Of a stretch of 34,343 bases of DNA, positions 675 through 32,223 are shown in pieces (position 1 is the first letter of the stretch; the number at the start of each line of letters is the position of its first letter). This DNA comes from Bacteroidales bacterium (GTDB lineage: Bacteria > Bacteroidota > Bacteroidia > Bacteroidales > UBA10428): contig JAFGEO010000012.1 in the NCBI GenBank assembly GCA_016931575.1, positions 1-34,343 on the forward strand, in the 5' to 3' direction. The notes beneath the pieces were generated by a model. That model made no database searches. It was not told where the DNA came from and saw nothing but the letters and a program-made list of their open reading frames with translations. Both the position numbers and the translations under genes were made by a program.

Positions 675-2948
675 ATGTCCATAATGAAACCTATGAATAA
701 TTCCATTTTAAGCTCAGGATCCCTTTTCCTGATCCTGTTTTTCCATCTTCTACCCACCAGGAGTGTGGGGCAACCCACCCTGGAAGATTATAACCGGGCA
801 GATTCAACGCGGAATTACCCGAACCTGGTATTTTACGCTGCAGAAAGGATAAACTGGGTGGATAGTACCCAAACCTGCTGGTACAGAACAAATACCGAAA
901 GCGGAATCGATTACCGGATCCTCGATACAAAAAAGCTAAGTAAAAGATCCCTTTTCAATGCTGCAAAGTTTTGCCGGGTACTGTGGGAAGAGATGGGCGT
1001 GGACTGCAAGCCGAAAGAACTTTACCTGCAGGATACGAAGCTCTCGCAGGATCTGCAGACACTGGAATTTGAGCTTCAGGGTCAAAAATTCCGTGCCGAC
1101 CTGAAGAAGTACAAGTTTGAAAAGCTTCCAAAGTTGAAGAGGGAGGAAGATGTTTACTGGGGAACTTCCTTCGATGAACGTTCCAATGAACCTGTGGTTT
1201 CACCTGACAGCAGCTATCTTGCCTACATAAAGGATTACAACCTGTATGTGAAGGAACTGGAGGGTGGCAGGGAAATCCAGCTGAGTTTCGACGGCTCGGA
1301 AGGTGAACTTTACTCTTCCTGCGTGAACTGGTCTCCGGATTCAAAATACCTGGCCCTCTTTAAAGTCAGGCCACAAACAAAAAAATACCTTCAGTTTGTA
1401 GAATCAACGCCGAAAGATCAATTCCTGCCTTTGCTGCACGAAAAAGAATACCTGAGACCCGGAGATGCGCTGCCAATCAGGACTCCGGCCCTGTTCGATG
1501 TGGAAGGCAGGAAGGCAGTGACTGTTGAAGGTTCAGACTACACAGATCAGTTTTCTCTCGAAAACCTGGTATGGGCCGGGGACAGCAAGTCGTTCTCCTT
1601 TGAATACAACCAGCGCGGGCACCAGCGGTTCCAGGTAATCAGGATCGATGCGGCGACCGGAAAAAAGCAGATCGTGCTCGATGAGCACAGCAATACTTTT
1701 ATCGACTATAGCAGTAAAAAGTACCGGTACGATTTAAAATCTGAAAATAAAATACTTTGGGCATCCGAACGCGATGGCTGGAACCATTTGTACTTTTTCA
1801 GCGCGGAGGACGGAAAGCTTATCTGTCAGGTTACAAAGGGAGAATGGCTTGTCCGGGAAGTAATACGCGTTGATGAGGAAGGTGAAAGGATCCTCTTTGC
1901 CGGCAGCGGCATGAATGCTGACGAAGACCCGTATTTTATTCATTACTACTGGATAAACTTCGATGGTTCAGGGCTTAAAGAGCTGACCCCGGAAAAAATG
2001 AACCATTCGGCAGTTTTCAGCCCCGACCACAAAGCCCCCTCTTTTGTAGACACCTACTCTGCTGCAGATCAGCCACCCCTGACGGTTGTCCGGGATATTA
2101 ATTCCGGTAAAGTCCTTATGGAAGCTGAAAAAGCTGATATTTCAAGGCTCCTTGCGGCCGGGTATATCCTGCCTGAACCCTTTGTGGCCAAAGCCAGGGA
2201 TGGAAAAACAGATATCTGGGGCAATATCTACCGCCCTTCCGGTTTTGATCCGGAGAAGACTTACCCTATCATTGAATACATCTATGCCGGACCACACAGC
2301 TCCTTTGTTCAGAAGTCGTTCCGGCCTTATATGTATGCCTTCACCGGACTCGCTGAACTTGGATTTGTTATTGTCCAGATCGATGGCATGGGGACCTCGA
2401 ACCGTTCGAAGGCTTTTCATGATGTATGTTATCAGAATCTGAAAGATGCAGGGTTTGAGGACCGCATCCTTTGGATGAAGGCAGCGGCCAGGAAATATCC
2501 CTATATGGATACAAGCCGGGTGGGCATCTTCGGAGGTTCGGCAGGCGGCCAGAATTCAACGGCGGCTCTCCTTCATCATCCTGAATTTTACAAGGCTGCC
2601 GTATCCGCATGCGGATGCCATGACAACCGTCTTGACAAAATCTGGTGGAACGAACAGTTCATGGGATTCCCCATCGGCCCGCACTATGCTGAAAACTCAA
2701 ACATTGAACATGCTGATAAACTTGAGGGCGAACTCCTGCTGATCGTCGGTGAGGTGGATGACAATGTAGACCCCGCCTCAACCTTCCGCCTGGCAGATGC
2801 CCTTATTAAAGCGGGGAAAGAATTCGAACTGGTTGTTCTTCCCGGAACAAACCATACTCTGGGAGGAGATTTCGGGGAACGGAAACGAAGAGATTTTTTT
2901 ATTAAAAAACTTATGGGTACTGATCCTCCTGACTGGAACAAGCCCTGA
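675..2948 (+). CDS. S9 family prolyl-oligopeptidase/DPP-IV-like serine peptidase, secreted
   Basis: This 757-residue protein is of the S9 (prolyl oligopeptidase/dipeptidyl peptidase) family, which cuts peptides after proline. A signal peptide (hydrophobic SLFLILFFHLLP) is followed by a DPP-IV N-terminal type beta-propeller (roughly 140-500; repeats such as VVSPDSSYLAYIKDYNLYV and VNWSPDSKYLALF) and a C-terminal alpha/beta-hydrolase domain (about 510-755). The triad is visible: Ser622 in GGSAGG, Asp695 in EVDDNVDP, His727 in GTNHTLGG. I do not see the double-Glu motif (YEEE) that anchors the substrate N-terminus in true DPP-IV, so dipeptidyl specificity is not assured. Methionines 4 and 7 (684, 693) are alternative starts. 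It is the first gene of the set ending with the arabinofuranosidase at 7200; the next gene starts 157 bp downstream, so it may or may not share that transcript. Confidence 0.88.
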   Translation: MSIMKPMNNSILSSGSLFLILFFHLLPTRSVGQPTLEDYNRADSTRNYPNLVFYAAERINWVDSTQTCWYRTNTESGIDYRILDTKKLSKRSLFNAAKFCRVLWEEMGVDCKPKELYLQDTKLSQDLQTLEFELQGQKFRADLKKYKFEKLPKLKREEDVYWGTSFDERSNEPVVSPDSSYLAYIKDYNLYVKELEGGREIQLSFDGSEGELYSSCVNWSPDSKYLALFKVRPQTKKYLQFVESTPKDQFLPLLHEKEYLRPGDALPIRTPALFDVEGRKAVTVEGSDYTDQFSLENLVWAGDSKSFSFEYNQRGHQRFQVIRIDAATGKKQIVLDEHSNTFIDYSSKKYRYDLKSENKILWASERDGWNHLYFFSAEDGKLICQVTKGEWLVREVIRVDEEGERILFAGSGMNADEDPYFIHYYWINFDGSGLKELTPEKMNHSAVFSPDHKAPSFVDTYSAADQPPLTVVRDINSGKVLMEAEKADISRLLAAGYILPEPFVAKARDGKTDIWGNIYRPSGFDPEKTYPIIEYIYAGPHSSFVQKSFRPYMYAFTGLAELGFVIVQIDGMGTSNRSKAFHDVCYQNLKDAGFEDRILWMKAAARKYPYMDTSRVGIFGGSAGGQNSTAALLHHPEFYKAAVSACGCHDNRLDKIWWNEQFMGFPIGPHYAENSNIEHADKLEGELLLIVGEVDDNVDPASTFRLADALIKAGKEFELVVLPGTNHTLGGDFGERKRRDFFIKKLMGTDPPDWNKP

Positions 2949-3105
2949 TCAATGAAGACATTTTTAACTAGTATTAAGACGAATAAATGTACCTGAACAA
3001 ATATTCCATACTTATGACATAATACTCCAAAGGCTGACATCTTTTTCATGCATGAAGAAAAGATAGGCAGCTTTGTTGTAGCGAAGTATTTTTAAAATTG
3101 CTGGT

Positions 3106-3975
3106 ATGAATAAGAAAATAACCATAAAATCAATTTCCGGTTTGCTAAGTCTGCTGACAGTAAGTTTTTTGTCGTTTACTTTTACTTCCTGTGTAGAAAA
3201 AAGTGCTGCAGAACAAGGTAAACCTCAGCCTGTCACCCAGGAATTTATTGACTGGGAGATCACAAAACCGCCTGCTTCCCTTGAACTCGATCCGTTTTAT
3301 AAAAAATATGTCTATGTAAACGGGATCCATGTGATCAGTTCCCGGAAAGTGCCGGATACAGCCATTTACCAGGCCTGCAATATCATCATGGCCATGACGG
3401 AGGCTCTGCCGAAAGATATCCTGAAAGAGCTGACCGTCCGTAATACCCGGGTAGGTATTATGGCCCGGTACGAGGGCACTACCGATATCCCCGAACACCG
3501 GGAGCTGGCGTCTGATACAACCCTGAACTGGGATGTGCGTGCACGGGGCCTGGGAGGGACCATCGAATTGCCACTGACCACCTGCGCAGAAGAAAACCTG
3601 CTTTGCTACCAGATTGATAAATACCATGCCGAGGACATCCTGATCCATGAATTTGCCCATACCATACATGGTGTCGGCATTCTTCCAAAGTACCCTGATT
3701 TCAACCAGCGTCTCCAAAAAATCATGGATGCTGCCCTCGCTGACGGGAAGTATGAAAACACCTATGCCCGTACGAACGTGGATGAGTATTTCGCTGAAGG
3801 AGTTCAGGACTGGTTCAATGTGAATGCAGAGGTGCCGGCACCGGACGGTAAACATAATCATGTAAATACAAGAAGCGAATTAAAAGAATATGATCCTGCC
3901 CTGTATGAATTAATTGCTGAGTTTTTTGAACCTACTATGGTTCTGGTAAGCTGTCATGCAGTACCTTTTGAATGA
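3106..3975 (+). CDS. HExxH zinc metallopeptidase lipoprotein, anthrax-lethal-factor-like
   Basis: A 289-residue predicted lipoprotein: the signal sequence ends in TFTSC, with the lipobox cysteine near residue 29, so it should be anchored to a membrane, probably facing the periplasm or cell surface. His181-Glu182-Phe-Ala-His185 (ILIHEFAHTIHGVG) is a zinc-peptidase HExxH motif. Downstream, NVDEYFAEGVQDWFNVN supplies a likely third ligand, Glu231 (Glu227 is also possible). The pairing of HEFAHxIH with EYFAEGVQxWF resembles the ATLF-like (lethal-factor-related, M34-type) gluzincins found in many secreted bacterial proteins of unknown substrate. The next gene begins within its stop codon (ATGA overlap) and the arabinofuranosidase follows, so protease and glycosidase are probably cotranscribed. 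The substrate is unknown; a glycoprotein is the attractive guess. Confidence 0.75.
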   Translation: MNKKITIKSISGLLSLLTVSFLSFTFTSCVEKSAAEQGKPQPVTQEFIDWEITKPPASLELDPFYKKYVYVNGIHVISSRKVPDTAIYQACNIIMAMTEALPKDILKELTVRNTRVGIMARYEGTTDIPEHRELASDTTLNWDVRARGLGGTIELPLTTCAEENLLCYQIDKYHAEDILIHEFAHTIHGVGILPKYPDFNQRLQKIMDAALADGKYENTYARTNVDEYFAEGVQDWFNVNAEVPAPDGKHNHVNTRSELKEYDPALYELIAEFFEPTMVLVSCHAVPFE

Positions 3976-4814: not shown

Positions 4815-4842
4815 GAAACAATAAAAATAAACCTAAGATTAG

Positions 4843-7200
4843 ATGAAAAAGACGACCACAGGATGTTTACTGTTATTGATGAGCTTTCAGCTTGCAATCG
4901 GTAACAGGACGATGGAGGAACCCATAAAAACTGATAATCCAAGGGAGGTTATTGCATTCGATGTCCTTCCTTTCGGGATAACGCAGGTTAAACTGCTTGA
5001 CGGTCCATTTAAACATGCAACGGAGCTAAATATACACTCACTTCTTGCCTATGAACCCGACCGCCTGCTGGCAAAGTTCAGGATTGAAGCCGGACTGGAA
5101 CCGAAAGCAGAACATTATGGTGGCTGGGAAGGGGAAACCCTTGCCGGACACAGCCTTGGCCATTACCTGAGCGGCTGCGCCCTGATGTACAACACTACCG
5201 GAAACCAGGAATTCCTGGACCGTGTGAATTATATCGTTGACGAGCTGACTGCCTGCCAGGAAGCATCGGGAAGCGGGTACCTCGGTGCCGTTCCCGGAGC
5301 CAAAAAAGTTTTTGATGAAGACATGGTGAATGGAGAGGTACGCTCCCAGGGTTTCGACCTTAACGGTATCTGGGCACCGATCTATACCCAGCATAAGATC
5401 ATGGCCGGATTGCTGGACGCCTACATGCTGTGTGCTAACGAAAAGGCCCTGGTAGCTGCAGAAAAATTCGCCGGGTGGATGGAAAACTACATTTCAAAGA
5501 TGACCGATGCGAATATCCAGAAAATGCTGCATTGCGAACACGGGGGAATAAACGAATCCCTTGCCGAGCTCTATGCCATTACCGGAAAGAAAAAATACGA
5601 AGATCTGTCCCTGAAGTTCTATCATAAAGAAATCCTCGATCCCCTGAGCCAGGGCATCGACATCCTCCCCGGCAAACATGCCAATACCCAGATCCCGAAA
5701 ATTATTGGTCTGGCCAGGTTGTATGAGCTCTCCGGGGACACTGAATACAAAGAAACCGCTGAGTTTTTCTGGGACAGGGTGGTGTACCATCACTCCTACG
5801 TCACCGGCGGGCATTGCGACCATGAGTATTTCGGTCCTCCGGATACCCTGCGAAACCGACTTAGCGAAAGCACAACCGAAACCTGCAATGTGTACAACAT
5901 GCTTAAGCTGTCACGTCACCTGTTCGAATGGCATGCTAGGGCAGAAGTTGCTGATTTTTATGAACGGGCTCTGTTTAATCACATACTCGCCTCACAGCAT
6001 CCTTCTACCGGCCATGTTATCTACAACCTGTCGCTGGAAATGGGAGGTCACAAAGTCTATCAGGATCCGGCATGGTTTACATGCTGTGTCGGCACCGGAA
6101 TGGAGACCCACTCAAAGTATCCGGCAAATATTTACTACCATAATGAGAATGAACTGTATGTTAGCCAGTTTATCGCTTCTGAACTGAACTGGGAAGAAAA
6201 ACAGGTCGTCATCAAACAAGTCACCCAATACCCGGAGGAAGAAGGTACGCAGCTTACTGTTCATACAAAATCGCCCCTTGAGTTCACCATGAAAATCAGG
6301 TACCCTTATTGGGCCGTATCCGGAATAAAGGTGAAAGTCAATGGTAAGGAATTAAGAATCAAAGAGACTCCCTCTTCATTCATTGCCATTAAACGAAAAT
6401 GGAAAAACGGTGACAAGGTTGAAGTCAGCTTCCCCTTTAGCCTTAGAACCGAGAGCATGCCCGATGATCCCAAAAGGATTGCCATTTTTAACGGTCCGGT
6501 TGTCCTTGCAGGTATATTGGGCGATACTACGGATGCAAATGCCTATGACCCCATGTACGTACCTGTGCTGATCACTACTGCTGACGATCTCCCGTCGAAG
6601 CTTGCAGCTGTTTCCGGTGAGCCTGGCACCTTCAGCATGGCCAATGTCGGCAGGCCCCGGGATGTCATGCTAAAACCCTTCTATAAGACCAATGATGTCC
6701 GGTATACTATTTACTGGGACATCTTCACAGAAGATAAGTGGAAGCAGGCACAGGAGGAGTATAAAGCAAAAATCGAAGAAGACAAGAATATCGAACGACA
6801 GACCATCGATTTCTTCCAGCCGGGAGAAATGCAACCTGAAAGGGACCATAACTTCCAGGAACATAACTCCTGGGTCGATGAGCATAAAGGAAGAAAATAC
6901 CGGGAAGCACATAATGGATGGATGTCCTGCGAAATGAAAGTGGTTCCGGGTGAGCACATTAGCCTTCTGGTGGACTACTGGGGAGGATTCCCGGGATCAA
7001 AAACCTTTGACATCCTGGTAGACGATACTTTTCTAACTACTGAAAACATTTCAAACCTGAACGAGGGGAAATTCATCACCTGTAAGTATGAAATCCCCGA
7101 AAACCTGCTTGAAGGAAAGAATAAGGTCACGGTCACCTTTAAATCCCATCAAGGCCATCGTGCAGGTCCCATTTTTGGTGTTCGCACCATCAGGAAATAG
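4843..7200 (+). CDS. DUF1680 beta-L-arabinofuranosidase, GH146/GH127-type
   Basis: A 785-residue exported glycoside hydrolase (signal peptide GCLLLLMSFQLAIG) of the DUF1680 clan. Glu346 and Cys348 in TTETCNVYNMLKLSR, and the pair Cys414-Cys415 in FTCCVGTGMETH, match the Glu/three-Cys zinc site of GH127/GH146 enzymes, in which a cysteine acts as nucleophile to release beta-L-arabinofuranose. Further clan features are the (alpha/alpha)6-barrel segments HCEHGGINESLAELYAITG and GKHANTQIPKIIGLARLYE; the latter and the TCCVGTGMETH form look more like the BT0349-type (GH146) branch than HypBA1, which I judge from memory. The C-terminal ~150 residues (from about 640) form an extra beta-rich domain (DUF6805-like). 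It starts 28 bp after the lipoprotein gene and is followed by a terminator, so it ends this operon. Another enzyme of the clan lies at 17639-20329. Confidence 0.88.
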   Translation: MKKTTTGCLLLLMSFQLAIGNRTMEEPIKTDNPREVIAFDVLPFGITQVKLLDGPFKHATELNIHSLLAYEPDRLLAKFRIEAGLEPKAEHYGGWEGETLAGHSLGHYLSGCALMYNTTGNQEFLDRVNYIVDELTACQEASGSGYLGAVPGAKKVFDEDMVNGEVRSQGFDLNGIWAPIYTQHKIMAGLLDAYMLCANEKALVAAEKFAGWMENYISKMTDANIQKMLHCEHGGINESLAELYAITGKKKYEDLSLKFYHKEILDPLSQGIDILPGKHANTQIPKIIGLARLYELSGDTEYKETAEFFWDRVVYHHSYVTGGHCDHEYFGPPDTLRNRLSESTTETCNVYNMLKLSRHLFEWHARAEVADFYERALFNHILASQHPSTGHVIYNLSLEMGGHKVYQDPAWFTCCVGTGMETHSKYPANIYYHNENELYVSQFIASELNWEEKQVVIKQVTQYPEEEGTQLTVHTKSPLEFTMKIRYPYWAVSGIKVKVNGKELRIKETPSSFIAIKRKWKNGDKVEVSFPFSLRTESMPDDPKRIAIFNGPVVLAGILGDTTDANAYDPMYVPVLITTADDLPSKLAAVSGEPGTFSMANVGRPRDVMLKPFYKTNDVRYTIYWDIFTEDKWKQAQEEYKAKIEEDKNIERQTIDFFQPGEMQPERDHNFQEHNSWVDEHKGRKYREAHNGWMSCEMKVVPGEHISLLVDYWGGFPGSKTFDILVDDTFLTTENISNLNEGKFITCKYEIPENLLEGKNKVTVTFKSHQGHRAGPIFGVRTIRK

Positions 7201-7226: not shown

Positions 7227-7263
7227 ATTTAGTCATACGAGGAGAATAGTGTTAATAAGCGCA

Positions 7264-7306: not shown

Positions 7307-7339
7307 AGGATGGTTTTCTTTATTTTAATTATGAAACTG

Positions 7340-7389: not shown

Positions 7390-10300
7390 ATGAAGTCCCC
7401 TGTCATAAAATATTTCCTTTTATTCTGCCTGCTCCTCAAGGTTGTGACGATGGGTGCCCAACCCCATGGCAAACTACTGATCACCAATTACAGCCAGCGC
7501 GAATTAGGCAGCGGCAGCGGCCAATTCTGGGCAGTAACTAAGGATCATCGGGGTGTCCTGTACGTCGCCGGTGAGGGTAACATCTTTGAATTTGACGGAA
7601 ACAGCTGGCGGGCAATTCCCATTCCGAATCAATCTGCCGTACGATCGCTGGCAGTTGATTCCAAAGGAGTTATCTATGTCGGGGCAGTGGGTGAGATCGG
7701 TTACCTTAAAGCCAATGCAAAAGGAAAGATGGAGTATGTTTCCATGCTTTCAAAGGTACCCAGGAACAAATTGCTCTTTTCCGATGTTTGGAGCACCAAC
7801 ACCATCGGCGATGCAGTATACTTTCAGACTGACAACCGTCTATTTCGCTATCAGGATGATAAAATCAAGGTTTGGAACCTGGAAAAATCCTATCACAGGA
7901 GTTTTGCCATTGAGGAGGAGATTTACCTGAACCAGCAGGGTATCGGGCTATGCAAACTTGACGGGGACTCCCTGAAACTTCTGCCTAATGGCGGGTTCTT
8001 CAGCGAGAATGTGATTTCCTCCATCATTCCTTATCGGGGCAACTACCTCCTGATCGGCACACGCAAAAAAGGCTTGTTCCTTTATAATATGAAAGATCCC
8101 GGCCCGTCAGGCATTCGTCCCTTTCATTCCGAGGCTAATGATTTCATCATTTCTAACCTTTTATACCACGGAATTAACCTGACGGATAACAAAATGGCCT
8201 TCTCAACCCTCACAAACGGTACCATCATAACCGACTTTGATGGCAAGATCCTTAAATACATCAACAAATCAACAGGTTTCATTGACTATACAACCTATTA
8301 CCTGAATCTGCTTGATAATGATGAATTATGGATCACCTCATCCCGGGGGGTTGGATTTTACAACATCAACTCTCCGGTAAGCTACTGGAACGATGAGCTT
8401 GGGCTGAAGGGGATTGTGAACGCCATCATACGGGACCGTGACTATCTCTATGTCGGCACCCATACCGGGCTCTTTTACCAAAACCTGAAGGAATTCAATT
8501 CCCGGAACCGAGCAACCCGGGACATTGCCTCCTCCTTCGGCCTCTATGAAAACCTGAATATGGAAGTCTGGGACATCATCAAGTTTAATCCTACCGGAAA
8601 CCCGAACGATAAAGCCAATGAGCAGATCCTTGCCGGCACGGGCTTAGGCCTCTATGACATCAATAAGAAAAAAACGGTCTATCCCAACATCCGCAACGGG
8701 CAGGTTACCATCTGCCAATCGGTGAAGAATCCTTCAATCCTCTATTTTAATACCCATCCCACATTTTACATCCTTCAGTATCATAAGGGAGTATGGCACA
8801 AAGTATGGGAAAAAAACATCTCCAGCTATATCCTCTCTATCGTTGAGGATGCAAACGGGGATGTTTGGATCGGCACGAGGTACTATGGGATTTTCCGTCT
8901 GAACCTTAAGGATTTCTTCCAGATGAAACCCCGCGATTACACACAGAAACTTAGTGAGGAGGATTTCAATTCCATAACTATGGACCATTTCAACACCCTT
9001 TCAGGACTTCCGAACCTGAATGAGTGTATGGTTTTTATGTATTTGAACCAGCTGGTGGTTTCCTGTCAGGGGCTATATGGCTTCAACGAGGAAAAGCAAC
9101 AATTCGAGAAAAGTGAAATTTTCGGTGAGGAGATCAAATCGTGGAACAAAACCCCCAATGACCTGAAGCCTGATGTTTATGGTAATATCTGGGGACTGGA
9201 GTCGGAAGTTCTTGATAAACAACCCGACGGTACTTTTAAAATCAGCCGGTTGCCCTACCAGATGCTGTGCTCCAGGAATGCCACCCTGGCCTATTACCAT
9301 GATGAGGAAGGTTCCACCTGGATCGGTGGGGAACAAGGTTTATTCCAGTATGACAGCAGGCAGGTCAGGCCCTCTAAAAAGAAAAACTTCCAAGTGTTGA
9401 TCAGGAAAGTCTCCATCGACCGGGATTCCCTCCTCTTTTTCGGAACGAACTTCAGATATGAGAACGAGTATCCCTATACAGCACTCAAGCAGCCTGCTCA
9501 GCTGATCCCGGAACTTTCCGTTCAGAATAAATCGATTATTTTCGAGTTTGCCAGCCCCTACTTCCAGGACGATGCCAGCCCGGAATACAGCTTCTACCTG
9601 GAGGGCTACGATGAAAACTGGTCAGACTGGTCGAATACCCGGAAAAAAGAATACAACAACCTCAGGGAAAATACCTACACCTTTCATGTTAGGGCCAGGA
9701 ATACCGCCGGAGAGGTCAGTGAGGAAAGCTCCTACACCTTTATTATCAATCCGCCCTGGTACAGGACAATCCTGGCCTATATCGCTTATATCCTCCTGGT
9801 GATCCTAACTTTTTATACCGCCATAAAGCTGAATTCAAAACGCTTGCGAAGGTACAACCTGGTCCTTGAAAAAACCGTTAAAGAGCGTACGCAGCAGCTT
9901 GAAGATCAGAAGGAGGAAATCAACAACCAGGCCATGGTCTTGCAAACCCAGAACGAAAAACTGGTACACCAGAAAAACAGGTTGGCAGAAATGTCCAAAG
10001 AGATCATGGAAACCAACAAAAACAAGCTCCGTTTTTTCACCAACATCTCCCATGAGCTCAGAACGCCCCTAACCCTTATCCTGGGCCCTGTCGAGGAATT
10101 ACTGGGCTCCTCCGGGAAAATGCCCGAAAAAGACCGTAAGAATCTTTATACTATTATACACCGGAATGCCAGCCGGCTGCTTACCCTGATCAATCAAATT
10201 CTGGATTTCAGAAAGATGGAGATCGGAAACCAGAAGCTTTCCGCTACGCAGGGAGATATCGTTGAGTTCGTGGAATCCATCGCTGCCTACTTCAATGATA

Positions 10301-23300: not shown

Positions 23301-24261
23301 CGGTAAACGATATTTCAATATCATTATCGACAGTGTTGTCTGAAACATCTCCCGTTAAATCAGGTGGTACAAGACCGGGTTCCTGAAAGGCATAGTATTC
23401 CCCGACCTGTGTATACCCATTGTTAAAATACGCATACAGGGCAATGCCATCTTTGGGGTCGATAACAGGGGGCAGGGTCACATCAAAGCTTACCACACCC
23501 AGGGCGTCGGTGCCGGAAAGCTCAATGATCCCTGGTGAGCTGGTATAATCTGTCCCATTGACCGTGTAGCTCTCGGTGTTGTCCGGTACGGTACTCATAA
23601 GTTCAATGCCGAGTTTAAACGTATAATCCTGCACGGGACTTCCACTATTATCAATAGCTGTGAGGGTAAACGTGCTGGTGCCCCCTTTAGTCAATGGCAT
23701 ATCAACAGAGCAGGTTGATCCAACAGGGATATTCTCACCTTCCTGTCCCCAAACCCTCCATTCGAGGATGCCGGTGGCAATGGTGCTGGTAGCATATACC
23801 CGGATCCGGGTGGTTACGAGGGTATCGAAGGTGGTAATATTGTACTGATCCGTTGCAATGCCGTTTCCTGAAACACCGGGGAGGGTATCCCAGCTTTCAT
23901 CCAGAAGGTTCCAATAGAGCTGATAGGTATTATAGGGAATCTGGATCCCGCCGTTGTCAGTCCACCAGTAAACATCAGACCGGCTGATCTCCATGATATC
24001 ATTCCAGCGGTACTCTACCCAGTCCCAGTCGCCATTGCTCCCGCTTTCCCAGTTCCCATAGGCACCGCCTGTTTTATCGGTCGAACCCGAAGGGTCGTAC
24101 CCGTCATTGATGGCGTACAGATCCTCCCAATCCGAAACATACGATGTCAGGATCTCATCTGCTTCCAGGGCAATGTTCCGCTGGGCATAACTTATCAGCA
24201 TGCAGGAGATTGTCAAAATGCCTGTAAGCAACAGGCGTCTAATCCGCTTGGTAGTCTTCAT
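20380..24261 (-). CDS. Large secreted HExxH metallopeptidase, DUF6055/Svx-AvrXca-like, multidomain
   Basis: A 1293-residue T9SS cargo protein. I choose the internal Met at 24261 (MKTTKRIRRLLLTG, typical signal peptide) over the in-frame ATG at 24306. Order: discoidin-like module (about 26-172; SRSDVYWWTDNGGIQIP, GILEWRVWG); three Ig-like segments (about 175-510), the middle one DUF1533-like; metallopeptidase region (about 515-930) with His642-Glu-Phe-Thr-His646 and Glu671 (FFWESHANYM); left-handed beta-helix hexapeptide repeats (about 962-1072; NAVVSEDARIEGFAIIKG); fibronectin type III (about 1112-1205); T9SS domain (about 1215-1293; RIFPNPSEEVVNF). The HEFTH and WES-HANYM pairing recalls DUF6055 proteins, to which the Svx/AvrXca plant-associated proteins belong; this assignment is from memory. 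Its module matches that of the GH127 partner 50 bp downstream, which suggests one shared substrate. Confidence 0.8.
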   Translation of the reverse strand: MKTTKRIRRLLLTGILTISCMLISYAQRNIALEADEILTSYVSDWEDLYAINDGYDPSGSTDKTGGAYGNWESGSNGDWDWVEYRWNDIMEISRSDVYWWTDNGGIQIPYNTYQLYWNLLDESWDTLPGVSGNGIATDQYNITTFDTLVTTRIRVYATSTIATGILEWRVWGQEGENIPVGSTCSVDMPLTKGGTSTFTLTAIDNSGSPVQDYTFKLGIELMSTVPDNTESYTVNGTDYTSSPGIIELSGTDALGVVSFDVTLPPVIDPKDGIALYAYFNNGYTQVGEYYAFQEPGLVPPDLTGDVSDNTVDNDIEISFTDDIDWRAAISGVSVNGNELNGGIDFSVSAGIITLFPSAENPALTGAGTKNILVHAAGYEDAGVQQILLTGEVNAERSEVSTLLNLYLHTTTQIQLTARDQYDNPVEGYAAAYDITVTNADATTNEAYTLGGTAVSASLADQDFPLTGADGQALLSITIPDFVDSEDGVLIQVKLADETPVSNPVSYSNDGSEKEIVLQATVNQQSDFSWERTAQSRNFIVYWGGRIVGDPTDAANGDLRFNPNNILEIMEALLSYMTDTIGFIENPDEGNMGRYKHEVVMNETWENTSVFTGYAFGGWIGDGKAGGMWIHPSATGGPAVLAHEFTHMCQAMIMSQYPGYGLNASYAGFFWESHANYMMAQYSGTYSGVQPERFINTSMLHFSTTRHYYQNAYFIDYVRDTYGLQAVNEIWRKASPVYSHPLTSLRDSVLRYTQSDLNDDFGRYAMKNVTWDYVNGPLIRSAVSSISESYIGREYTIPDSLADGSGSFVVPRHLAPGDYGYNIIPLYPDEAASEISIQFTGYANEPAGGAGNRYGFVAVDEEGNPRYSDVYSDLQTDATFTISAADSKVFLVVTGAPQKHHNYGWTTGFPKEYRYPYSFSIQGAVPAGHKAGYNSEHEGIAGDAHPNGGGFVASTATVAETVWVGPNAQVLENAVVSEDARIEGFAIIKGSATVDGSAVVRGTAIVGGTSIITENAVVEEAARVYGSSLSDNAVATGSALLYNSRLRQSAIAKDLAYLSDVSLSGTVIVGGDAEEWTNCSEGMYLQMGTVRTAGCDGEVTHRLNEDVNPDWEIYAYPIGEIPTAPMNLDALNITQSTVSLSWDAAESVNGLSKYIVVIDGNTVLSSEETSAIVGELEPETTYEVYVRAMDYQGNFSASSDTIEITTAIAGLPGLNTDHAVRIFPNPSEEVVNFVSDASEPVSVVIYESTGRAIFRTSFTGSLEVPTAQLGGEGVYYAELETIMGRYTKKLIVIP

Positions 24262-24313
24262 ATCGGAAATCTTCAAGATGAATAAAAAATGAAATGCACT
24301 AAGCAAATTCGCT

Positions 24314-24426: not shown

Positions 24427-25431
24427 TTAGAAAATGACAACTTTATCAGAATAAATCTGACCATCAGCAGTCTGAACTGCGATAACATAAGTTCCGTCAG
24501 TTAAGCCAGCGACGCTGATTCCGTTTGCATCAATGTCAGAAACAGATTTAACAAGCTGTCCGGCCATATTTACGACCTGGATCTGCTTAAGGCCTGAAAT
24601 GTTGTCAGAGCCGAATTTGATCATCTGATCGAGGGCGCTGTAGTAGAGCTTGATTTCCTCACCATTCATGGCAGGAATAGCCAGCGTTGAACCGGTGATC
24701 GATACGTTGTCGAATACAACCGTTCCTTCCTGATCGGTGTAGGAAGCGTTGTATAAACCAACCTGCAGTGGAAATGCATCCATATCTTCACGATCTTCAC
24801 TCCAGTACTCCCACCAGGTTTCTCCATCTTCGCTGATAGAACCTGTAACGGTTGAACCAGATTTGCTCAGGCGCATCCAGGGATGTGAAGCGACAGAAAC
24901 TTCATTCTCGTCAGCATCCACAGAGATCCAGTTTTCTTCCGGATCCATCGGAATGTTTCTGAAACCATAGACTGCTCCCCAATTCGGACGGTCAAAAGCC
25001 TGCAGGGCAACAAAGCTGACTGTTTCAGCATCGTCAACACGAACAATAGGTCCAACCATAAGGTAGTCCACGGTATCACCATTTCCGAATGAAGGGAAAG
25101 TACCATCAAAGATCTCAACGGTAATTGAGAAATCAGATCCGGCAGGAACGTTTTTGTAGATCATACAACCGTTGTCGTTATTACCAGCAAAATACGAGTA
25201 AACCGTTGTGAAGGTCAGCGCACCTGAATTGGTTGTAGTGTTCAGGTCCAAAATTTCTGCAACTTCAGCAACCTCAAGGATACCGCCATTTTCCTTGACG
25301 CCATCCCAGATTGTTCCGTCAACTCCGTCAAGGTAGTCGTGAGAAGCGCTGAAATCGTCCGTTATCTGTCCAAATACTGAGAGGCTACCCGCAGCGAACA
25401 AAATCATTAAAAAAGTAAAAGTTTTTTTCAT
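24427..25431 (-). CDS. Secreted DUF1349/LamG-like protein with T9SS sorting domain
   Basis: A 334-residue protein; the Met at 25431 (MKKTFTFLMILFAAGSLSVFGQ) gives a clean signal peptide and is preferred over the ATG at 25443. The body (about 22-245) looks like a concanavalin A-type beta-sandwich of the DUF1349 kind: ITDDFSASHDYLDGVDGTIWDG, then VGPIVRVDDAETVSFVALQAF, SHPWMRLSKSGSTVTGSISEDGETW (shortened) and QVGLYNASYTDQEGTVVFDNVSI. That DF...W...G...D / W-x-R-L / DG-x-W / VGL / FDNV pattern marks a carbohydrate-binding or glycoside-hydrolase-associated fold. A T9SS type A domain (about 255-334) follows. No catalytic residues are recognised. It is transcribed alone between two terminators, with direct repeats upstream that share a block with the susC promoter region, suggesting co-regulation with susCD. 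A surface glycan-binding role is inferred. Confidence 0.8.
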   Translation of the reverse strand: MKKTFTFLMILFAAGSLSVFGQITDDFSASHDYLDGVDGTIWDGVKENGGILEVAEVAEILDLNTTTNSGALTFTTVYSYFAGNNDNGCMIYKNVPAGSDFSITVEIFDGTFPSFGNGDTVDYLMVGPIVRVDDAETVSFVALQAFDRPNWGAVYGFRNIPMDPEENWISVDADENEVSVASHPWMRLSKSGSTVTGSISEDGETWWEYWSEDREDMDAFPLQVGLYNASYTDQEGTVVFDNVSITGSTLAIPAMNGEEIKLYYSALDQMIKFGSDNISGLKQIQVVNMAGQLVKSVSDIDANGISVAGLTDGTYVIAVQTADGQIYSDKVVIF

Positions 25432-25599
25432 AGCTAAGTACATTTAAAAGTTAGAAATAGTCTTTAATCCCGATTAGATCTTATTATGAGTCCGGCAGTA
25501 ATTCCTGACCCGGCACATCACTTCTATGGTCTGGACATTCTGCATACTACAATATTAACCGGAATAGCCTCAAAAATCGTGTTGATACAATTCTTTAAG

Positions 25600-25961: not shown

Positions 25962-25994
25962 AAAAAAAGGGGCCGTCTCCTGTGAGACAGCCCC
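25962..25994 (-). terminator. Rho-independent terminator of the susCD operon
   Basis: On the minus strand GGGGC-T-GTCTC (25994-25984) pairs with GAGAC-G-GCCCC (25979-25969) with one internal mismatch, a tetraloop ACAG, and then a seven-T run (25968-25962). It lies about 40 bp after the SusD stop. Confidence 0.92.
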
Positions 25995-26034
25995 TGATTA
26001 CCTATTTAACCTAATATGAAGTATCTGTGATATC

Positions 26035-27678
26035 CTAGTAACCCGGGTTTTGTACCAGGTTTGAGTTTGTCTGCAATGCGGTTTCAGGAATCGGGAAAAT
26101 GGTTCTGAAATCACCATTTGGCACGTGGGAGAGCCACTTTTTAGTAGTGAATACACCAAATCGGATCAGATCCTGACGACGGCGGGCTTCTGCAGCGAAC
26201 TCCCATCCCAGTTCATCCAGGAAACGTCCATACTGAATGTCGGCTCCACCTTCCGGACTGGCTTCCAGAACACCTTCGGTAACGTTGCCATACTCATAGC
26301 TACTTCCAGCTTGTAGTTCAGCTCCGGTAACCTCTGCATCAGCAGGATCATCGAAAGCACGCAGACGGACCTCGGTAACGAGTGTTGCAGCACCATCGGC
26401 ATCACCTGTGCGAAGCAGCGCTTCAGCCTTCATCATCAGTATGTCGGCATAGCGGAACCATACCCAGTCGTTTTCGAGGCGACCGAATTTTGTACCCACG
26501 GCAATTTCATATTTACCGATCCGGTAACCTTCTTCTTCATAGGTATCCTCGATTCCTTGCAGGATGTTGGTGTAGTTCAGCTGTTCGCTGGTTCTGGCAT
26601 CGTCCATGGAAAGATATACGGTATCCCCGTTCAAAGCAAACTGGGGCCCCATGATCCAGGTTGCTGCCAGCCTGTCATCATTCGGATGATACGTATTGAT
26701 AAACTGAGGAATGGCACAGTTTCCACCCCAGGGCTGTACTTCCAGGTCGTAGGTAGCCTGGCTGCCGGGGTGAAGCGTCTTATTCAACAGGTGGAACCAT
26801 CCATAATCTTCAAATGGGTCAGATTTGGATGCAAAAGGAACGGCAAAGATGATTTCAACGGATGATTCATTATTCGTCTTGAAGGTATTCCTGACATCAG
26901 GTTCGAGACTATACAGGTTGCTTGTAATCACTGCATCACATTCCTCAATGCACTTAGCCCACTGGGCTGTACCGGTGTATACCTCAGCATTCTGATAGAC
27001 TTTTGCCAACAGCGTGTGAGCAGCCCACTGGTTGAAACGACCGTAGGTTTCTACGTTGTTTTCTGCCGGCAGGTTCTCCATGTTATCGTTAATTTCCTGT
27101 ATTACGAAGTTGTATACTTCCTGGCGGGTGCTCTGTTCAGGCAGAAAATCTTCAGGAACATCATACTGCGTTGTTACCGGTACGTTACCAAAGTTATCCA
27201 GAAGGATGTAGTAGTAAAATGCCCGAACGACTTTTAGCTCAGCCAAAGTTTTTACCGCATCATCCGGATCCATTGGAAGGTTTCCTGATTCAATCTGGTA
27301 CAAGGCACGGTTACAATGGTTAATCCCTGTGTAGCAGCGATTCCAGAGCGCTGATGAATGACTTTGTTCGCTATTCCAGATGTGCTCATGCATGGCACGG
27401 TAAACACCGCCGTCAACCCATCCATTGGGCCTTTCAGGGGTAACAATAATGTCCGAACATTCCTCCTGGGTGTCAAACATACCATGCCAGTAAAACAGAA
27501 CCTCTCTCAGGTTAGTATAGGCGGGTCCGGTAATGGCAACAGCATCCTCCGGGGTAGGAATAAATTCCTCTGAAAGCAGATCGTGGTATACTACTTCCGA
27601 TGTGTCGGTACAAGCATTAAGCAGGAAGAGTGTACCGATCAGTGCAATGTTAAATATTCGTATGATAGTCTTTTTCAT
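26035..27678 (-). CDS. susD-like: SusD/RagB family nutrient-binding outer membrane lipoprotein
   Basis: A 547-residue lipoprotein (signal FNIALIGTLFLLNAC, lipidated Cys23) of the SusD/RagB family, the surface lid that binds glycan over its SusC porin. Family features: N-terminal TPR-like helices with the typical ALYQIES and AELKVVRAFYYYILLDNFGNVPV (shortened here) segment, and the C-terminal RRQDLIRFGVF followed by FPIPETALQTNSNLVQNPGY, the canonical SusD end. The gene starts 19 bp after susC on the same strand and is closed by a strong terminator, so the two form a complete bicistron with no enzyme gene in the transcript. The ligand cannot be told from sequence; the genetic neighbourhood (two beta-L-arabinofuranosidases) suggests arabinose-containing oligosaccharides or glycopeptides, which is inference. 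Confidence 0.95.
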   Translation of the reverse strand: MKKTIIRIFNIALIGTLFLLNACTDTSEVVYHDLLSEEFIPTPEDAVAITGPAYTNLREVLFYWHGMFDTQEECSDIIVTPERPNGWVDGGVYRAMHEHIWNSEQSHSSALWNRCYTGINHCNRALYQIESGNLPMDPDDAVKTLAELKVVRAFYYYILLDNFGNVPVTTQYDVPEDFLPEQSTRQEVYNFVIQEINDNMENLPAENNVETYGRFNQWAAHTLLAKVYQNAEVYTGTAQWAKCIEECDAVITSNLYSLEPDVRNTFKTNNESSVEIIFAVPFASKSDPFEDYGWFHLLNKTLHPGSQATYDLEVQPWGGNCAIPQFINTYHPNDDRLAATWIMGPQFALNGDTVYLSMDDARTSEQLNYTNILQGIEDTYEEEGYRIGKYEIAVGTKFGRLENDWVWFRYADILMMKAEALLRTGDADGAATLVTEVRLRAFDDPADAEVTGAELQAGSSYEYGNVTEGVLEASPEGGADIQYGRFLDELGWEFAAEARRRQDLIRFGVFTTKKWLSHVPNGDFRTIFPIPETALQTNSNLVQNPGY

Positions 27679-27697
27679 GATCGTTATTTTTTATCGC

Positions 27698-30673
27698 TTA
27701 AAACTTGACATTTAAACCCACCGTAAACGTTCGTGTGGTTGGATACTTATCGCGGTTATCATTTCCGGGAGCCAGGATAGATCCATCTTCCAGAGAAACT
27801 TCCGGATCCATACCGGTATAGTTGGTAAAGGTGTACAGGTTCTGGGTAGAAACATATACCCTAAGCGATTTCATGTTTTCAGTATTCTTTGGCGTAAACG
27901 TGTAGCCAAGGGTCACATTGTCAATTTTAACGTAATCACCGTCTTCAATATAGTAACTTACGTATGACTGCGGACTGCTCAGCGTATCCTTACCGTATAC
28001 CAGGTGGTGAGCCGTTTCAAGCATATTATAAGAGATGGTAGGATTTTCGTAGAACATACGCTGGAAGTTCAGGATCTGGAACCCGAAAGCGCCACGGATA
28101 CCCACTGACAGATCAAAGTCCATGAACCTGACGGTATTGTTCCATCCGGCATAGAATTTCGGAATTCCGTTACCGAGTACCATCTTATCCTCAGGAGCTG
28201 CTGAAGTATAGCGGACAGTATCCCCTTCGGGAGTCAACACAAGGAAGCGTCCCCGGTCATCGATATCCACCGACTGATAGCCCCAGAAATTACCGATCTG
28301 CTCGCCCACATAGACACGGTGTGTCCCTTGCTGAATGGGGTCTCCGGTATAACCGGCATCTAGGTAATCGTAATCAAGTTCGAATCCATAGCCCTGAAGC
28401 GCAACCAGCTTATTCTTGTTTGAAGAAAAGTTAATGGCTGAGGTCCAGGTAAGATTCTTTGTCTGTACCGGAACGAGTGTCAGTAATGCCTCGATGCCCT
28501 TGTTCTCCATTGAAGCAGCATTTGCCAGGATGCTTGAATATAGGTAAGGAGGTACAGACACCGGATAGTTGTATAGAAGATCTTCTGATCTACGTATATA
28601 GTAATCAACCGTACCGGAAACCCGTCCTCTCAGGAAGGCAAAATCCAGACCAATGTTGGTTTCTTTCTTCTTTTCCCATCGAAGATCGGGGTTAGGGTTA
28701 CTTCCAGGAACAATGGTCGGAACCCACTCTCCGTTATAATATATATATGAGCTATAATTCAACAATGTCAATGACTGATACGGATTGCTCGGAATGATAC
28801 CTGTTACCCCATAACCGGCACGCAGTTTCAGGTCGGTAACAAAATCGATGTTTTCCATGAAGGATTCCTGGCTGATCCTCCAACCCGCCTGAATGGACGG
28901 AAAATTACCCCATTGGTAGTTTTCTCCGAATTTGGAAGACCCCTCGCGGCGCATACTGGCAGTGAGGAGGTATTTTCCATCGTAACTATAATTGATCCTT
29001 CCGAAAAATCCTATCAGGAGTGACATATTTTTATTACTGCTCATGTCAGCCGCTCCATCTGGCAGAGCTGTTCCGCTTCCCAGATTATTATACAGATAAG
29101 CATCTGTCGGGAAATACTTGTTATAGGCCCAGAAAGTTTCCCAGGTATTGTACTCATAGCTGTATCCTCCAACGATGCTGATGCGGTGGGCACCAAAAGA
29201 TTTTGAATAATCTCCGGTAAGTTCAAGCAGCTTGTTCTCGCTGGCGTCAGCAGATTTTTGAGCCTGACCACCCTGTCCATCACGTGTATTGGAAATATGG
29301 TTGAAGGTCTCAGCCCTTGCCCATACCTGGTTGTAGATCTGACGGGAGAGTAAAAGGTTGATCTTAAGTTCCCGGATTGGGGTCAGCGTTACATTTCCAT
29401 ATACCCTTGAGTGTAATCCTTTGGTTCCTCCGAAAGTTTCCTCCAGAAGGGCTACCGGGTTCTCATACTGGAACTTATCCACCTCGTACCAGCTTCCATC
29501 CTCGTTGGTGAGAGGCTCAGTGGGGTTATGGATCATTGCCTGTCGATAAGCCCAGTTGATATCGGCTACAGGACTGGTATTCCTGCTGGTATACGTTCCG
29601 ATATTAACAGAAAGTATGTCTTTCCAGATCTCCTGGGTAACATCTACCCTTGTCTTGAAAGTTTCAAGGTAGGAGTTATTGAAAATACCATCTGCTTTGG
29701 TGTAGTTTACGCTGGCCACATAGGCTGTTTTTTTGCTGCCGCCCTGGATAGAAAGACTGTGCATCTGACTGAAAGGATTGTGGGTGATGGCATCCAACCA
29801 GTCTGTTGCATACCCCAGGTCGCTGAAGTTGTCAACGCCGGCCGCAGCCAGTCGCCGATAATCTTCCACACCATAGAAAGGTGCGGTTTCATACATGCGC
29901 TGTGTACTGACATAGGCATTGTATTCTGCAGACATCTCCATGTTCTTGGTGCCTTTTTTCGTGGTGATAATGATCACACCGTTGGTACCGCGTGTTCCAT
30001 AAATTGCGGCTGCGGAACCATCCTTCAGGATGTCGATGGTTTCAATATCTTCCACAGCTACCATATCCAGACTACCGGGAATTCCGTCAACGATCACCAT
30101 GGGTGAGTACCCGGATTGAAGGGAGGAAATACCCCTTAACATGATCTGAACACCGTCCAGCGGGTTACCGGAGGGGTTATGAACGGCCAGACCGGCGACT
30201 TTTCCCTGCAGCAGCTGACCGGCATCCTTCACCTGACCGGTGACAAATTCGTCAGAACTAACAGAGGTAATGGCACTGGTCACATCGCTTTTGCGCTGGG
30301 TACCGTATCCGATGACGACCACCTCATCCAATCCTACGAGGTCGGGAGCCATCGCGAGATCCAGTACAGACATCCCTGCGGTGACTTCCACCTCCTCGGA
30401 GAGGTAGCCGATAAAGCTGATTTGCAGGATATCCCCTGCTTCAGCCTGAAGAGCGAAAATTCCCTCGGAATCCGTAATGGTCCCGTTGGAAGTTCCTTTA
30501 ACAAAAATCGTTACTCCGGCCATTGCATCGCCATTTTCATCGGTGACGGTTCCCCGAATTTCGGATTGCGAAAAGCCGGCTTGAGAGAGTGCAAGAGAAA
30601 AGATCAGTACAGCGACTATTTTCCTAATCACTTTCCTCTCATAATAAGAGCATTTTTTAATGATTGATTCCAT
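27698..30673 (-). CDS. susC-like: SusC/RagA TonB-dependent outer membrane transporter
   Basis: A 991-residue TonB-dependent transporter of the SusC/RagA family. Order: short basic N-terminal extension and signal peptide (IVAVLIFSLALSQAGFSQ); carboxypeptidase-regulatory-like domain (about 37-115; IRGTVTDENGDAMAGVTIFV); TonB-box-like region and the SusC signature LDEVVVIGYGTQRKSDVTSAI (cut at 20: LDEVVVIGYGTQRKSDVTSA); plug (about 125-240; LQGKVAGLAV, ILKDGSAAAIYGTRGTNGV); then the 22-strand beta-barrel ending in TFTVGLNVKF with the terminal aromatic residue. It forms the channel that takes up oligomers captured by SusD, driven by TonB/ExbBD. No STN (anti-sigma-linked) domain is present, so it should not signal through an ECF sigma/anti-sigma pair; control by the HTCS is more likely. 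The gene has a 476-bp upstream region with candidate operators. Confidence 0.96.
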   Translation of the reverse strand: MESIIKKCSYYERKVIRKIVAVLIFSLALSQAGFSQSEIRGTVTDENGDAMAGVTIFVKGTSNGTITDSEGIFALQAEAGDILQISFIGYLSEEVEVTAGMSVLDLAMAPDLVGLDEVVVIGYGTQRKSDVTSAITSVSSDEFVTGQVKDAGQLLQGKVAGLAVHNPSGNPLDGVQIMLRGISSLQSGYSPMVIVDGIPGSLDMVAVEDIETIDILKDGSAAAIYGTRGTNGVIIITTKKGTKNMEMSAEYNAYVSTQRMYETAPFYGVEDYRRLAAAGVDNFSDLGYATDWLDAITHNPFSQMHSLSIQGGSKKTAYVASVNYTKADGIFNNSYLETFKTRVDVTQEIWKDILSVNIGTYTSRNTSPVADINWAYRQAMIHNPTEPLTNEDGSWYEVDKFQYENPVALLEETFGGTKGLHSRVYGNVTLTPIRELKINLLLSRQIYNQVWARAETFNHISNTRDGQGGQAQKSADASENKLLELTGDYSKSFGAHRISIVGGYSYEYNTWETFWAYNKYFPTDAYLYNNLGSGTALPDGAADMSSNKNMSLLIGFFGRINYSYDGKYLLTASMRREGSSKFGENYQWGNFPSIQAGWRISQESFMENIDFVTDLKLRAGYGVTGIIPSNPYQSLTLLNYSSYIYYNGEWVPTIVPGSNPNPDLRWEKKKETNIGLDFAFLRGRVSGTVDYYIRRSEDLLYNYPVSVPPYLYSSILANAASMENKGIEALLTLVPVQTKNLTWTSAINFSSNKNKLVALQGYGFELDYDYLDAGYTGDPIQQGTHRVYVGEQIGNFWGYQSVDIDDRGRFLVLTPEGDTVRYTSAAPEDKMVLGNGIPKFYAGWNNTVRFMDFDLSVGIRGAFGFQILNFQRMFYENPTISYNMLETAHHLVYGKDTLSSPQSYVSYYIEDGDYVKIDNVTLGYTFTPKNTENMKSLRVYVSTQNLYTFTNYTGMDPEVSLEDGSILAPGNDNRDKYPTTRTFTVGLNVKF

Positions 30674-31149: not shown

Positions 31150-32223
31150 ATGGAAAGAATAAAGCAATTTCTTAAAAAAATGTCCGCATCAGGATACGAT
31201 GCTTTCCTGGCTGTGAAACCGGAAAACGTCAGCTACCTCACCCATTTCACCGGCGATTCATCGCACCTGATGGTTTCGGAAACCGGCACCTTCCTGCTGA
31301 CCGATGGGAGGTACTCCGAACAAGCCCGCATGGAGTGCCCGGCAGGGGTCGAAGTGCTGGAATGGCTGGATAACGAAAGGTATGGCGTGAAAACCTATGC
31401 CTATGTCCTGCAGAAGATGAATGCCGCAAAACTTGGCTTCGAATCGAACGTTCTGAGTTATGCCGACTACCTTAAACTCAGCGCCGGACTCACCGATGCC
31501 AGTCTGATCGCGACCACCGATGTCATCGATGAGCTCAGAATGATCAAAGATGATGACGAGATCGCTTTTCTGAGGAAGGCCTGCCAGATCTCCGATGCCG
31601 CCCTTCAGGCCCTTATCCCCTCAATTAAGCCAGGCGTTTCTGAACTGGAGCTCACTGCCACACTGGAATATCAGCTAAGGATGCAGGGTGCCGAGGATAT
31701 TTCCTTTGCCACCATCGTCCTTTCGGGAAGCAAAACCTCCCTCCTGCATGGCCACCCGGGAACAAAAAAACTGGAAAACGGGGAATTCCTGCTCTTCGAT
31801 TTCGGGGCCCTCTATAAAGGATACCATGCAGATATCAGCAGGACCCTGGTGGTGGGCAAAGCTTCCGACAGGCATAAACAAGTCTATGCCATGATCAGGG
31901 AAGCCCAGGAAAAAGCCGTCTTCTCCATCCGGGACGGTGTTGTGGGAAATACCCCCGATGCTGTGGTTCGTGAAACCCTGTCAGAGGAATACCTCCCTTA
32001 CTATTATCCGGGTATGGGCCATGGTGTAGGCCTCGAGATCCACGAGCAACCCTTCATTAAAAAAGGTTGTGATACAGTTTTTAAAACAGGCATGGTGGTA
32101 ACCGTTGAACCCGGAGTGTATATTCCCGGCTGGGGCGGACTTCGGATTGAGGATACGATCCTGGTTCGTGACGGGGAGCCGGAGCTGTTGACGAATTTTC
32201 CGAAGGAATTGATGGAGGTTTAG
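31150..32223 (+). CDS. M24B Xaa-Pro aminopeptidase/dipeptidase, short form
   Basis: A 357-residue cytoplasmic peptidase without signal peptide. The N-terminal creatinase-like domain (1-~130; YDAFLAVKPENVSYLTHFTG, FLLTDGRY) precedes the pita-bread catalytic domain with all five metal ligands: Asp217 (LLFDFGA), Asp228 (YHADISRT), His291 (GMGHGVGLEIHE), Glu320 (VTVEPGVYI) and Glu334 (LRIEDTIL). Length and order match the PepP/PepQ-like short M24B enzymes that remove the residue before proline from peptides or split Xaa-Pro dipeptides; which of these applies cannot be read from sequence. It is divergent from susC across a 476-bp gap and is the second M24B protein of the window, which would suit a diet of proline-rich peptides. 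It is also common as a housekeeping gene, so the link is uncertain. Confidence 0.92.
   Translation: MERIKQFLKKMSASGYDAFLAVKPENVSYLTHFTGDSSHLMVSETGTFLLTDGRYSEQARMECPAGVEVLEWLDNERYGVKTYAYVLQKMNAAKLGFESNVLSYADYLKLSAGLTDASLIATTDVIDELRMIKDDDEIAFLRKACQISDAALQALIPSIKPGVSELELTATLEYQLRMQGAEDISFATIVLSGSKTSLLHGHPGTKKLENGEFLLFDFGALYKGYHADISRTLVVGKASDRHKQVYAMIREAQEKAVFSIRDGVVGNTPDAVVRETLSEEYLPYYYPGMGHGVGLEIHEQPFIKKGCDTVFKTGMVVTVEPGVYIPGWGGLRIEDTILVRDGEPELLTNFPKELMEV

Follow-up and report, generated by a model that had tools for sequence, protein, structure and literature searches.

Introduction

Extensins and related hydroxyproline-rich glycoproteins (HRGPs) are cross-linked wall proteins, and microbial use of their protein part is little described. 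Extensin bears hydroxyproline-linked beta-arabinose chains with an alpha-arabinose cap, together with serine-linked alpha-galactose (PMC13164431, PMC6085000). Here we describe a stretch of 34,343 bases (hereafter the window), which is the entire contig JAFGEO010000012.1 (C143) of a 4.8 Mb, 168-contig genome of a Bacteroidales bacterium (GCA_016931575.1). The window very probably encodes a utilisation locus for arabinosylated HRGPs, with extensin favoured; the choice of extensin over arabinogalactan-proteins (AGPs) or algal HRGPs is a preference.

Each of the closest described systems resembles part of this locus. The Svx protein of Pectobacterium (PMC9266454, PMC10815107, PMC13164431), like one peptidase of the window, joins a DUF6055-type gluzincin to an acyltransferase-like domain; it cleaves extensin, and the acyltransferase-like domain is required (PMC13164431). 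Plant pathogens secrete Svx as a virulence factor, whereas the window's protein carries a type IX secretion system (T9SS) tail and extra domains, falls below the NCBIfam cut-off for Svx and is encoded inside a SusCD locus with arabinofuranosidases. The HypAA-HypBA2-HypBA1 systems of Bifidobacterium longum and Xanthomonas euvesicatoria likewise use GH43 and GH127/GH146 enzymes to strip hydroxyproline-linked arabinooligosaccharides; the available sections mention no peptidase or hydroxyproline-catabolism genes (PMC7263609, PMC6085000). GH121 was absent from the Pfam scans of the proteins studied here, which included no search aimed at GH121. The Pro-Pro endopeptidases PPEP-1, -2 and -3 (5a0p, 6fpc, 9g5j) come from Clostridium, Paenibacillus and Geobacillus, whereas their candidate counterpart in the window, P3, is a Bacteroidota protein. 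The hydroxyproline dehydratase HypD (PMC7077986, 6vxc) has counterparts in the window's genome and its relatives that pass the NCBIfam equivalog cut-off; the main text of that paper lacks the terms plant wall, extensin, arabinose and gene cluster, while clustering with beta-arabinofuranosidases is seen here. Finally, a proposal for HRGP degradation by Latescibacteria interprets GH127 as indicating that extensin is used and names general peptidases next to it, but it lists genes genome-wide and, in the sections available, mentions no Svx, no Pro-Pro endopeptidase and no genes for hydroxyproline catabolism (PMC4454575). An earlier note on this DNA, which proposed that the locus dismantles both the glycan and the protein of such glycoproteins, knew of no described locus with this exact combination, and we found none in the open-licence literature searched.

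Results

Pfam recovers, where the earlier note had placed them, a GH127- and a GH146-type enzyme, two HExxH peptidases, an S9 peptidase and two M24B peptidases, the latter both complete. Going beyond that note, the window also holds a SusC/SusD pair, a hybrid regulator and the clipped tail of a GH43-type protein; a SusC/SusD pair, glycosidases and a hybrid regulator together make this a Sus-type polysaccharide utilisation locus. Its principal features are:

675..2948, plus strand: S9 dipeptidyl-peptidase, DPP4 type (Pfam DPPIV_N 2.9e-49, Peptidase_S9 2.6e-45)
3106..3975, plus strand: P3, gluzincin metallopeptidase, probable lipoprotein (HEFAH; predicted Pro-Pro endopeptidase-like fold)
4843..7200, plus strand: GH146-type beta-L-arabinofuranosidase (PF07944 1.2e-122)
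7390..11625, plus strand: hybrid two-component regulator (Reg_prop, Y_Y_Y, HisKA, HATPase_c, response regulator, HTH_18)
16084..17466, plus strand: M24B Xaa-Pro aminopeptidase, M24a (Pfam M24 and AMP_N)
17639..20329, minus strand: GH127-type enzyme with an F5/8-like region and a weak T9SS tail match (PF07944 8.2e-104, with middle and C domains)
20380..24261, minus strand: Svx-like (DUF6055) gluzincin peptidase with an acyltransferase-like (left-handed beta-helix) domain, Fn3 and a T9SS tail
26035..27678, minus strand: SusD-like protein (SusD_RagB 8.8e-26)
27698..30673, minus strand: SusC-like TonB-dependent transporter (TIGR04056 719.3 bits, cut-off 368)
31150..32223, plus strand: M24B Xaa-Pro dipeptidase, M24b (Pfam M24 and Creatinase_N)

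The Svx-like peptidase lies in a long frame (20380-24306, minus strand) with a likely ATG at 24261, the start that the earlier note had used. Its protein matches DUF6055 at 8.7e-101 (338 bits), has its HEFTH motif at residues 657-661 of the long frame and ends in a T9SS tail. The HExxH motif and downstream glutamate of the family (H123, E124, H127 and E152) are invariant across 31 aligned sequences. An acyltransferase-like domain is also present: the match to NF040510, the Svx model, spans residues 627-1056, NeuD-type repeats cover 954-1038, and the predicted model displays the strand pattern, at low confidence (pLDDT) in that part. The same genome encodes a second, compact DUF6055 protein (G000:C38:5948-7198, L040), without an acyltransferase-like domain and with no GH127 near. 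Four loci from Bacteroidales, by record title partly of the ruminant gut (L155, L157, L160, L161), encode DUF6055 proteins of 654-668 residues with none of the searched partners nearby.

Both arabinofuranosidases combine a PF07944 domain with intact E-x-C and CC motifs, as defined for GH127/GH146 (PMC10850190). These motifs stand at residues 346 and 414 in the GH146-type enzyme and at 339 and 406 in the GH127-type enzyme. The closest solved chain is 5opj (1.5e-147) for the former, which places it on the GH146 side, and 6ex6 (4.1e-206) for the latter. We take 5opj to be BT0349, 6ex6 to be BT3674 and 3wkw to be HypBA1.

The second metallopeptidase, P3, shows weak sequence-level matches: one to ATLF (3.2e-4) lies below the Pfam cut-off, and a profile of 14 sequences matched lethal factor (2l0r, E 0.0051) and 6fpc (E 0.11). 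With Foldseek alone, no match of P3 fell below 0.001, and lethal factor and collagenases ranked first. A second look with VIA-align gave the Pro-Pro endopeptidases 5a0p, 6fpc and 9g5j as the best structural matches of the predicted model, at 17-20% identity in the structural alignments, which suggests a Pro-Pro endopeptidase fold. The order of HExxH, Tyr and Glu is the same in P3 and in these enzymes, whose residues were taken from PDB titles and whose catalytic numbering we assume for the comparison. P3's designation as a lipoprotein and the secretion of the S9 enzyme are both read from the N-terminus only. The S9 enzyme had been called prolyl-oligopeptidase-type; its S9 membership stands, but with 2d5l as its best solved chain it is of DPP4 type and not a prolyl oligopeptidase proper.

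We followed these peptidases through 20 genomes, comprising 18 of the 23 in the window's family plus G690 and G238. All neighbourhood statistics given here ignore relatedness, and the genomes were sampled, partly by hand. S9 matches of at least 47% identity occur in the same 10 of the 20 genomes as P3, and in 7 of these 10 no more than 0.5 kb separates the two; G644 and G647, with S9 matches of 28-30% only, were not counted as having orthologs. M24b has an ortholog in 7 genomes and adjoins P3 in all 6 besides the window's, where it is 27 kb away. P3, S9 and M24b orthologs travel together, often beside GH146. M24a is one of two copies in its genome and is 62% identical to the copy that adjoins P3/GH146 in G645 (G645:C374), while the genome's other copy (G000:C100) stands at 46%. 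Homologs of M24a are found in 19 of the 20 genomes, so we rejected this gene as strong evidence; it carries little weight apart from being a second, locus-linked copy.

Gene order in relatives brings the two halves of the locus together. G645, of the same genus, has GH43-S9-P3-GH146 with M24a on the opposite strand. In Dysgonomonas sp. Marseille-P4677 (L158), a hybrid regulator stands next to SusC-SusD-DUF6055-GH127-P3-GH43-GH127-S9, with SusC to S9 on one strand, and G238 has GH127-SusC-SusD-DUF6055-[GH97+P3]-GH43-GH127-S9, in which P3 is fused to GH97. Among 60 relatives, DUF6055 (E up to 1e-20) was found in 10 and P3 in 9, with both in 7 (Fisher 1e-5). Around 25 strong DUF6055 loci from 22 sampled genomes, a GH127-family (PF07944) gene lies within 10 kb in 10, against 0.56 expected, and within 20 kb in 13, against 1.04 expected; the P value for the former, 1.9e-11, is not to be taken literally because the genomes are related. 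This count drops weak partial matches (in 52 of 61 genomes no match is as strong as 1e-40) and a partial match at G690:C28; it counts once a G416 gene split over two frames. The G665 gene is cut by a contig end. Neighbourhood labels were assigned with phmmer and misfire at low score: the GH127 label in L142 has 123 bits only. L041:6529-9168 was discarded as a GH127 or Svx candidate, as its label came from a T9SS tail and the protein has no such domain.

Genes for hydroxyproline catabolism recur in the same surroundings. A glycyl radical enzyme and its activase recur beside the genes described above in the window's family, and the enzyme passes the HypD model (NF043068, cut-off 1100) in G651 (1265), G648 (1161) and the window's own genome (1218). 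The latter protein matches solved HypD 6vxc at 1.3e-294 and is encoded on contig C92, between a GH43 gene and two GH127 genes. The activases of the HypD loci stay below the cut-off of their own model; that of the window's genome scores 273 bits with NF043069 (cut-off 425), its best-scoring model, and is a glycyl-radical activase by TIGR02494 (265.7 over 174). HypD was found in 15 of 36 chosen genomes, with GH127/GH146 within 10 kb in 8 of the 15, the window's own genome included; in the nine genomes with a GH127 map, HypD is near GH127 in 4, against 0.30 expected. In one HypD open frame (L180:11493-14036) the model match stops at position 740 of 784 and a TrpC-like stretch follows, a possible assembly or frame problem.

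In Flavobacterium and Chitinophaga, operons with a 4-hydroxyproline epimerase (HypE) lie near Svx-like and arabinofuranosidase genes instead. The epimerase model (cut-off 376) is passed in G202 (592), G222 (590), Chitinophaga japonensis (595) and C. silvisoli (598). The G202 stretch begins SusC-SusD-M61, then, after one opposite gene, dihydrodipicolinate synthase (DHDPS)-type-aldehyde dehydrogenase-epimerase-FAD oxidase-amino acid permease, and continues S9-GH127-DUF885-DUF5695-GH43-M24-DUF6055-GH36; the G021 locus is laid out much like it. Both Chitinophaga species have a Svx-like gene directly upstream of epimerase-FAD oxidase-DUF885-GH146, and on its other side DHDPS-type-aldehyde dehydrogenase-permease, directly in C. 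japonensis and after three opposite genes in C. silvisoli. Of 8 genomes, 4 have HypE no more than 10 kb from GH127, against 0.19 expected, and 3 have it no more than 21 kb from DUF6055, against 0.10 expected. The DHDPS-, aldehyde- and FAD-type genes of this aerobic pathway match their models below cut-off only, and we presume their roles from their position next to the epimerase. Two further families were noted in these surroundings. DUF5695 proteins of about 900 residues repeatedly accompany DUF6055, DUF885 or 4-hydroxyproline genes, both in Flavobacterium and in genomes of family f3 (L041:14857-17553, L042:2707-5421, L222, L224, L225), and several loci have an M64 peptidase gene close to HypD or GH127 (L181, L183, L211, L212, L214).

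On the glycan side, HRGP-type loci hold GH127/GH146 and GH43, and outside the window also GH97 or GH36. The GH97 enzyme of the G661 locus is nearest to the retaining alpha-galactosidase 3a24 (2.8e-161) and not to alpha-glucosidases; the GH43 of G645 has a weak best solved chain (1.4e-22). The added GH43 and alpha-galactosidases of relatives fit the reading, because extensin's glycans would require them. The window itself begins with a piece of a GH43 gene that is truncated by the contig edge, as judged from the gene order in G645 and from 49% identity over 182 residues between the product of 3-557 and the C-terminus of the G645 GH43 protein (L178:2-2047), whose gene likewise precedes S9. The remaining features of the window are:

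3..557, plus strand: C-terminal piece (LamG) of a GH43-type protein (Laminin_G_3), clipped by the contig end
3972..4814, plus strand: P4, no family assigned, sharing 4 bases with the end of P3
12293..15682, plus strand: CotH/lamin-tail-domain protein with a T9SS tail (Pfam CotH, LTD)
24427..25443, minus strand: P12, T9SS tail and DUF1349-like region, a possible binding protein

The minus-strand run SusC, SusD, P12, T9SS peptidase, GH127 has gaps of 19, 591, 120 and 50 bases. P12 matches DUF1349 below cut-off (3.7e-5) and the TIGR04183 tail above it (35.0 over 23); its homolog in G661, a genome of the window's family, lies between the Svx-like gene and GH127 (L083). P4 had no Pfam or NCBIfam match, and no homolog was labelled in the fetched neighbourhoods. 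A homolog of the CotH/lamin-tail protein (L183:1220-4606, 1261 bits) directly follows GH127 in the G661 locus, and a LytTR gene lies on the plus strand between the CotH gene and M24a.

Discussion

The proposal that this locus takes apart both glycan and protein gains support from Svx homology, the predicted Pro-Pro endopeptidase fold of P3, and the alpha-galactosidases and hydroxyproline-catabolism genes recognised by homology. Several observations weigh against our reading. The window's DUF6055 protein scores 249 bits with NF040510, below the equivalog cut-off of 625, and for this reason we call it Svx-like and not Svx. In several well-clustered relatives (G238, G202, G222 and Dysgonomonas) the DUF6055 protein is compact and lacks the acyltransferase-like domain, so the result obtained with Svx can be carried over directly only to window-like forms. 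The window contains neither an alpha-galactosidase nor HypD, the genome's own HypD being on another contig. Twelve of the 25 DUF6055 loci lack GH127 within 20 kb: 4 are in genomes without any GH127, 2 on contigs of 3.5 and 7.1 kb, and 6 in genomes with GH127 elsewhere, some on contigs too short for 20 kb on both sides. Near 7 of the 15 HypD genes there is no GH127 (two of the seven are on contigs below 5 kb, one at a contig end). Among 80 named Svx-like loci from the wider phylum (54 of at least 20 kb, 26 shorter), 55 are without any searched partner other than SusC, and GH127/146 is present in only 7, one of them weak; GH43 occurs in 12, alpha-galactosidase families in 11, M24 and hydroxyproline-pathway genes in 9 each, and P3 and S9 in 1 each. 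The earlier note had offered its reading for refutation should the peptidases not travel with the arabinofuranosidases; where the system occurs (Dysgonomonas, G238, G645) they do, and the reading withstands this condition, with the 55 partnerless loci as a limit. Finally, GH127-type enzymes have other substrates, including aceric acid in rhamnogalacturonan II (RG-II), AGP and arabinan (PMC10850190), and since the family also holds aceric acid hydrolase, it does not by itself give the substrate.

The locus could serve AGPs or other arabinosylated HRGPs, such as green-algal wall glycoproteins, in place of extensin. AGP backbones also bear hydroxyproline, and the peptidases and hydroxyproline genes would fit them too; the window's GH127 is closest to 6ex6, presumably BT3674, GH43 includes galactanases, and the G021 locus (L191) has a GH42 beta-galactosidase. 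BT3674, a beta-arabinofuranosidase, acts with galactanases on larch arabinogalactan (PMC10850190). Against this stand the action of a Svx relative on extensin itself and the relatives' alpha-galactosidase-type GH97/GH36, which suit serine-linked alpha-galactose, and we consider such a substrate unlikely, if still a serious contender. A plain pectic locus, for arabinan or RG-II with the peptidases as unrelated neighbours, strikes us as very unlikely. The GH146 enzyme BT0349 is active on arabinan-derived oligosaccharides (PMC10850190) and the best NCBIfam match of the window's GH127 is the aceric acid hydrolase model (430 bits, cut-off 950), but such glycosidases are accompanied by P3, S9, M24b and DUF6055 elsewhere too, in other genomes and families; a pectin would give no use for hydroxyproline catabolism, and the Pfam scan of 16 window proteins showed no family of pectin lyases.

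The neighbourhood might also reflect chance or a lineage-specific gathering of common genes, S9, M24 and SusC/D genes being widespread and many of the sampled genomes related; the 55 of 80 Svx-like loci without partners point the same way. Yet GH127 accompanies DUF6055 far above the expected count (10 of 25), and like sets in differing gene orders occur in Dysgonomonas, the window's family, Flavobacterium and Chitinophaga, which makes this extremely unlikely. Collagen or gelatin use would likewise combine hydroxyproline, X-Pro peptidases and a collagenase-like metallopeptidase, and HypD is discussed with collagen in PMC7077986. Clostridial collagenases were among the first Foldseek matches of P3, but the recurring partners are beta-arabinofuranosidases. 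To our knowledge, collagen carries no arabinose. Overall, hydroxyproline genes fit pectin poorly, and hydroxyproline genes together with arabinofuranosidases fit collagen poorly, which weakens both rivals; collagen is in our estimation the least credible of the substrates.

Returning to a locus for arabinosylated HRGPs, we infer its substrate, the cellular location of its enzymes and the order of their steps from gene content, motifs, homology, fold match and clustering. The first steps would take place at the cell surface. Exported by the T9SS, the Svx-like peptidase would cut the glycosylated protein chain while its beta-helix domain reads the arabinose chains; the T9SS GH127 would trim beta-L-arabinofuranose, and P12 and SusD may bind the product. 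SusC/SusD would import glycopeptides into the periplasm. There, the GH43 enzyme clipped at the contig end would take off the alpha-linked arabinose cap and GH146 the remaining beta-arabinose on hydroxyproline; P3 would then open the exposed stretches of proline/hydroxyproline, and X-Pro dipeptides would be clipped off by the S9 enzyme of DPP4 type. In the cytoplasm, the M24B enzymes would split Xaa-Pro, and freed hydroxyproline would be dehydrated by the HypD encoded on contig C92. Activation of the locus probably falls to the hybrid regulator (7390-11625).

We further propose, as a joint claim that we hold to be somewhat more probable than its negation, that Bacteroidota possess a modular system for whole extensin-type glycoproteins, from arabinose and galactose to the poly-hydroxyproline backbone and free hydroxyproline. 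The peptidase core would be the DUF6055/Svx-like endopeptidase and a Pro-Pro-endopeptidase-like protein specialised for poly-hydroxyproline, with a HypD (anaerobic) or an epimerase (aerobic) branch according to lifestyle, and DUF5695, DUF885 and M64 proteins as further unrecognised members. Arabinose removal, dedicated peptidases and hydroxyproline catabolism would together give a full, testable pathway, and the HypD of anaerobes would have plant or algal wall protein as one source of its hydroxyproline. A nutritional role would also emerge for relatives of Svx, a family known from plant pathogens, and the locus would supply enzymes that read extensin glycosylation.

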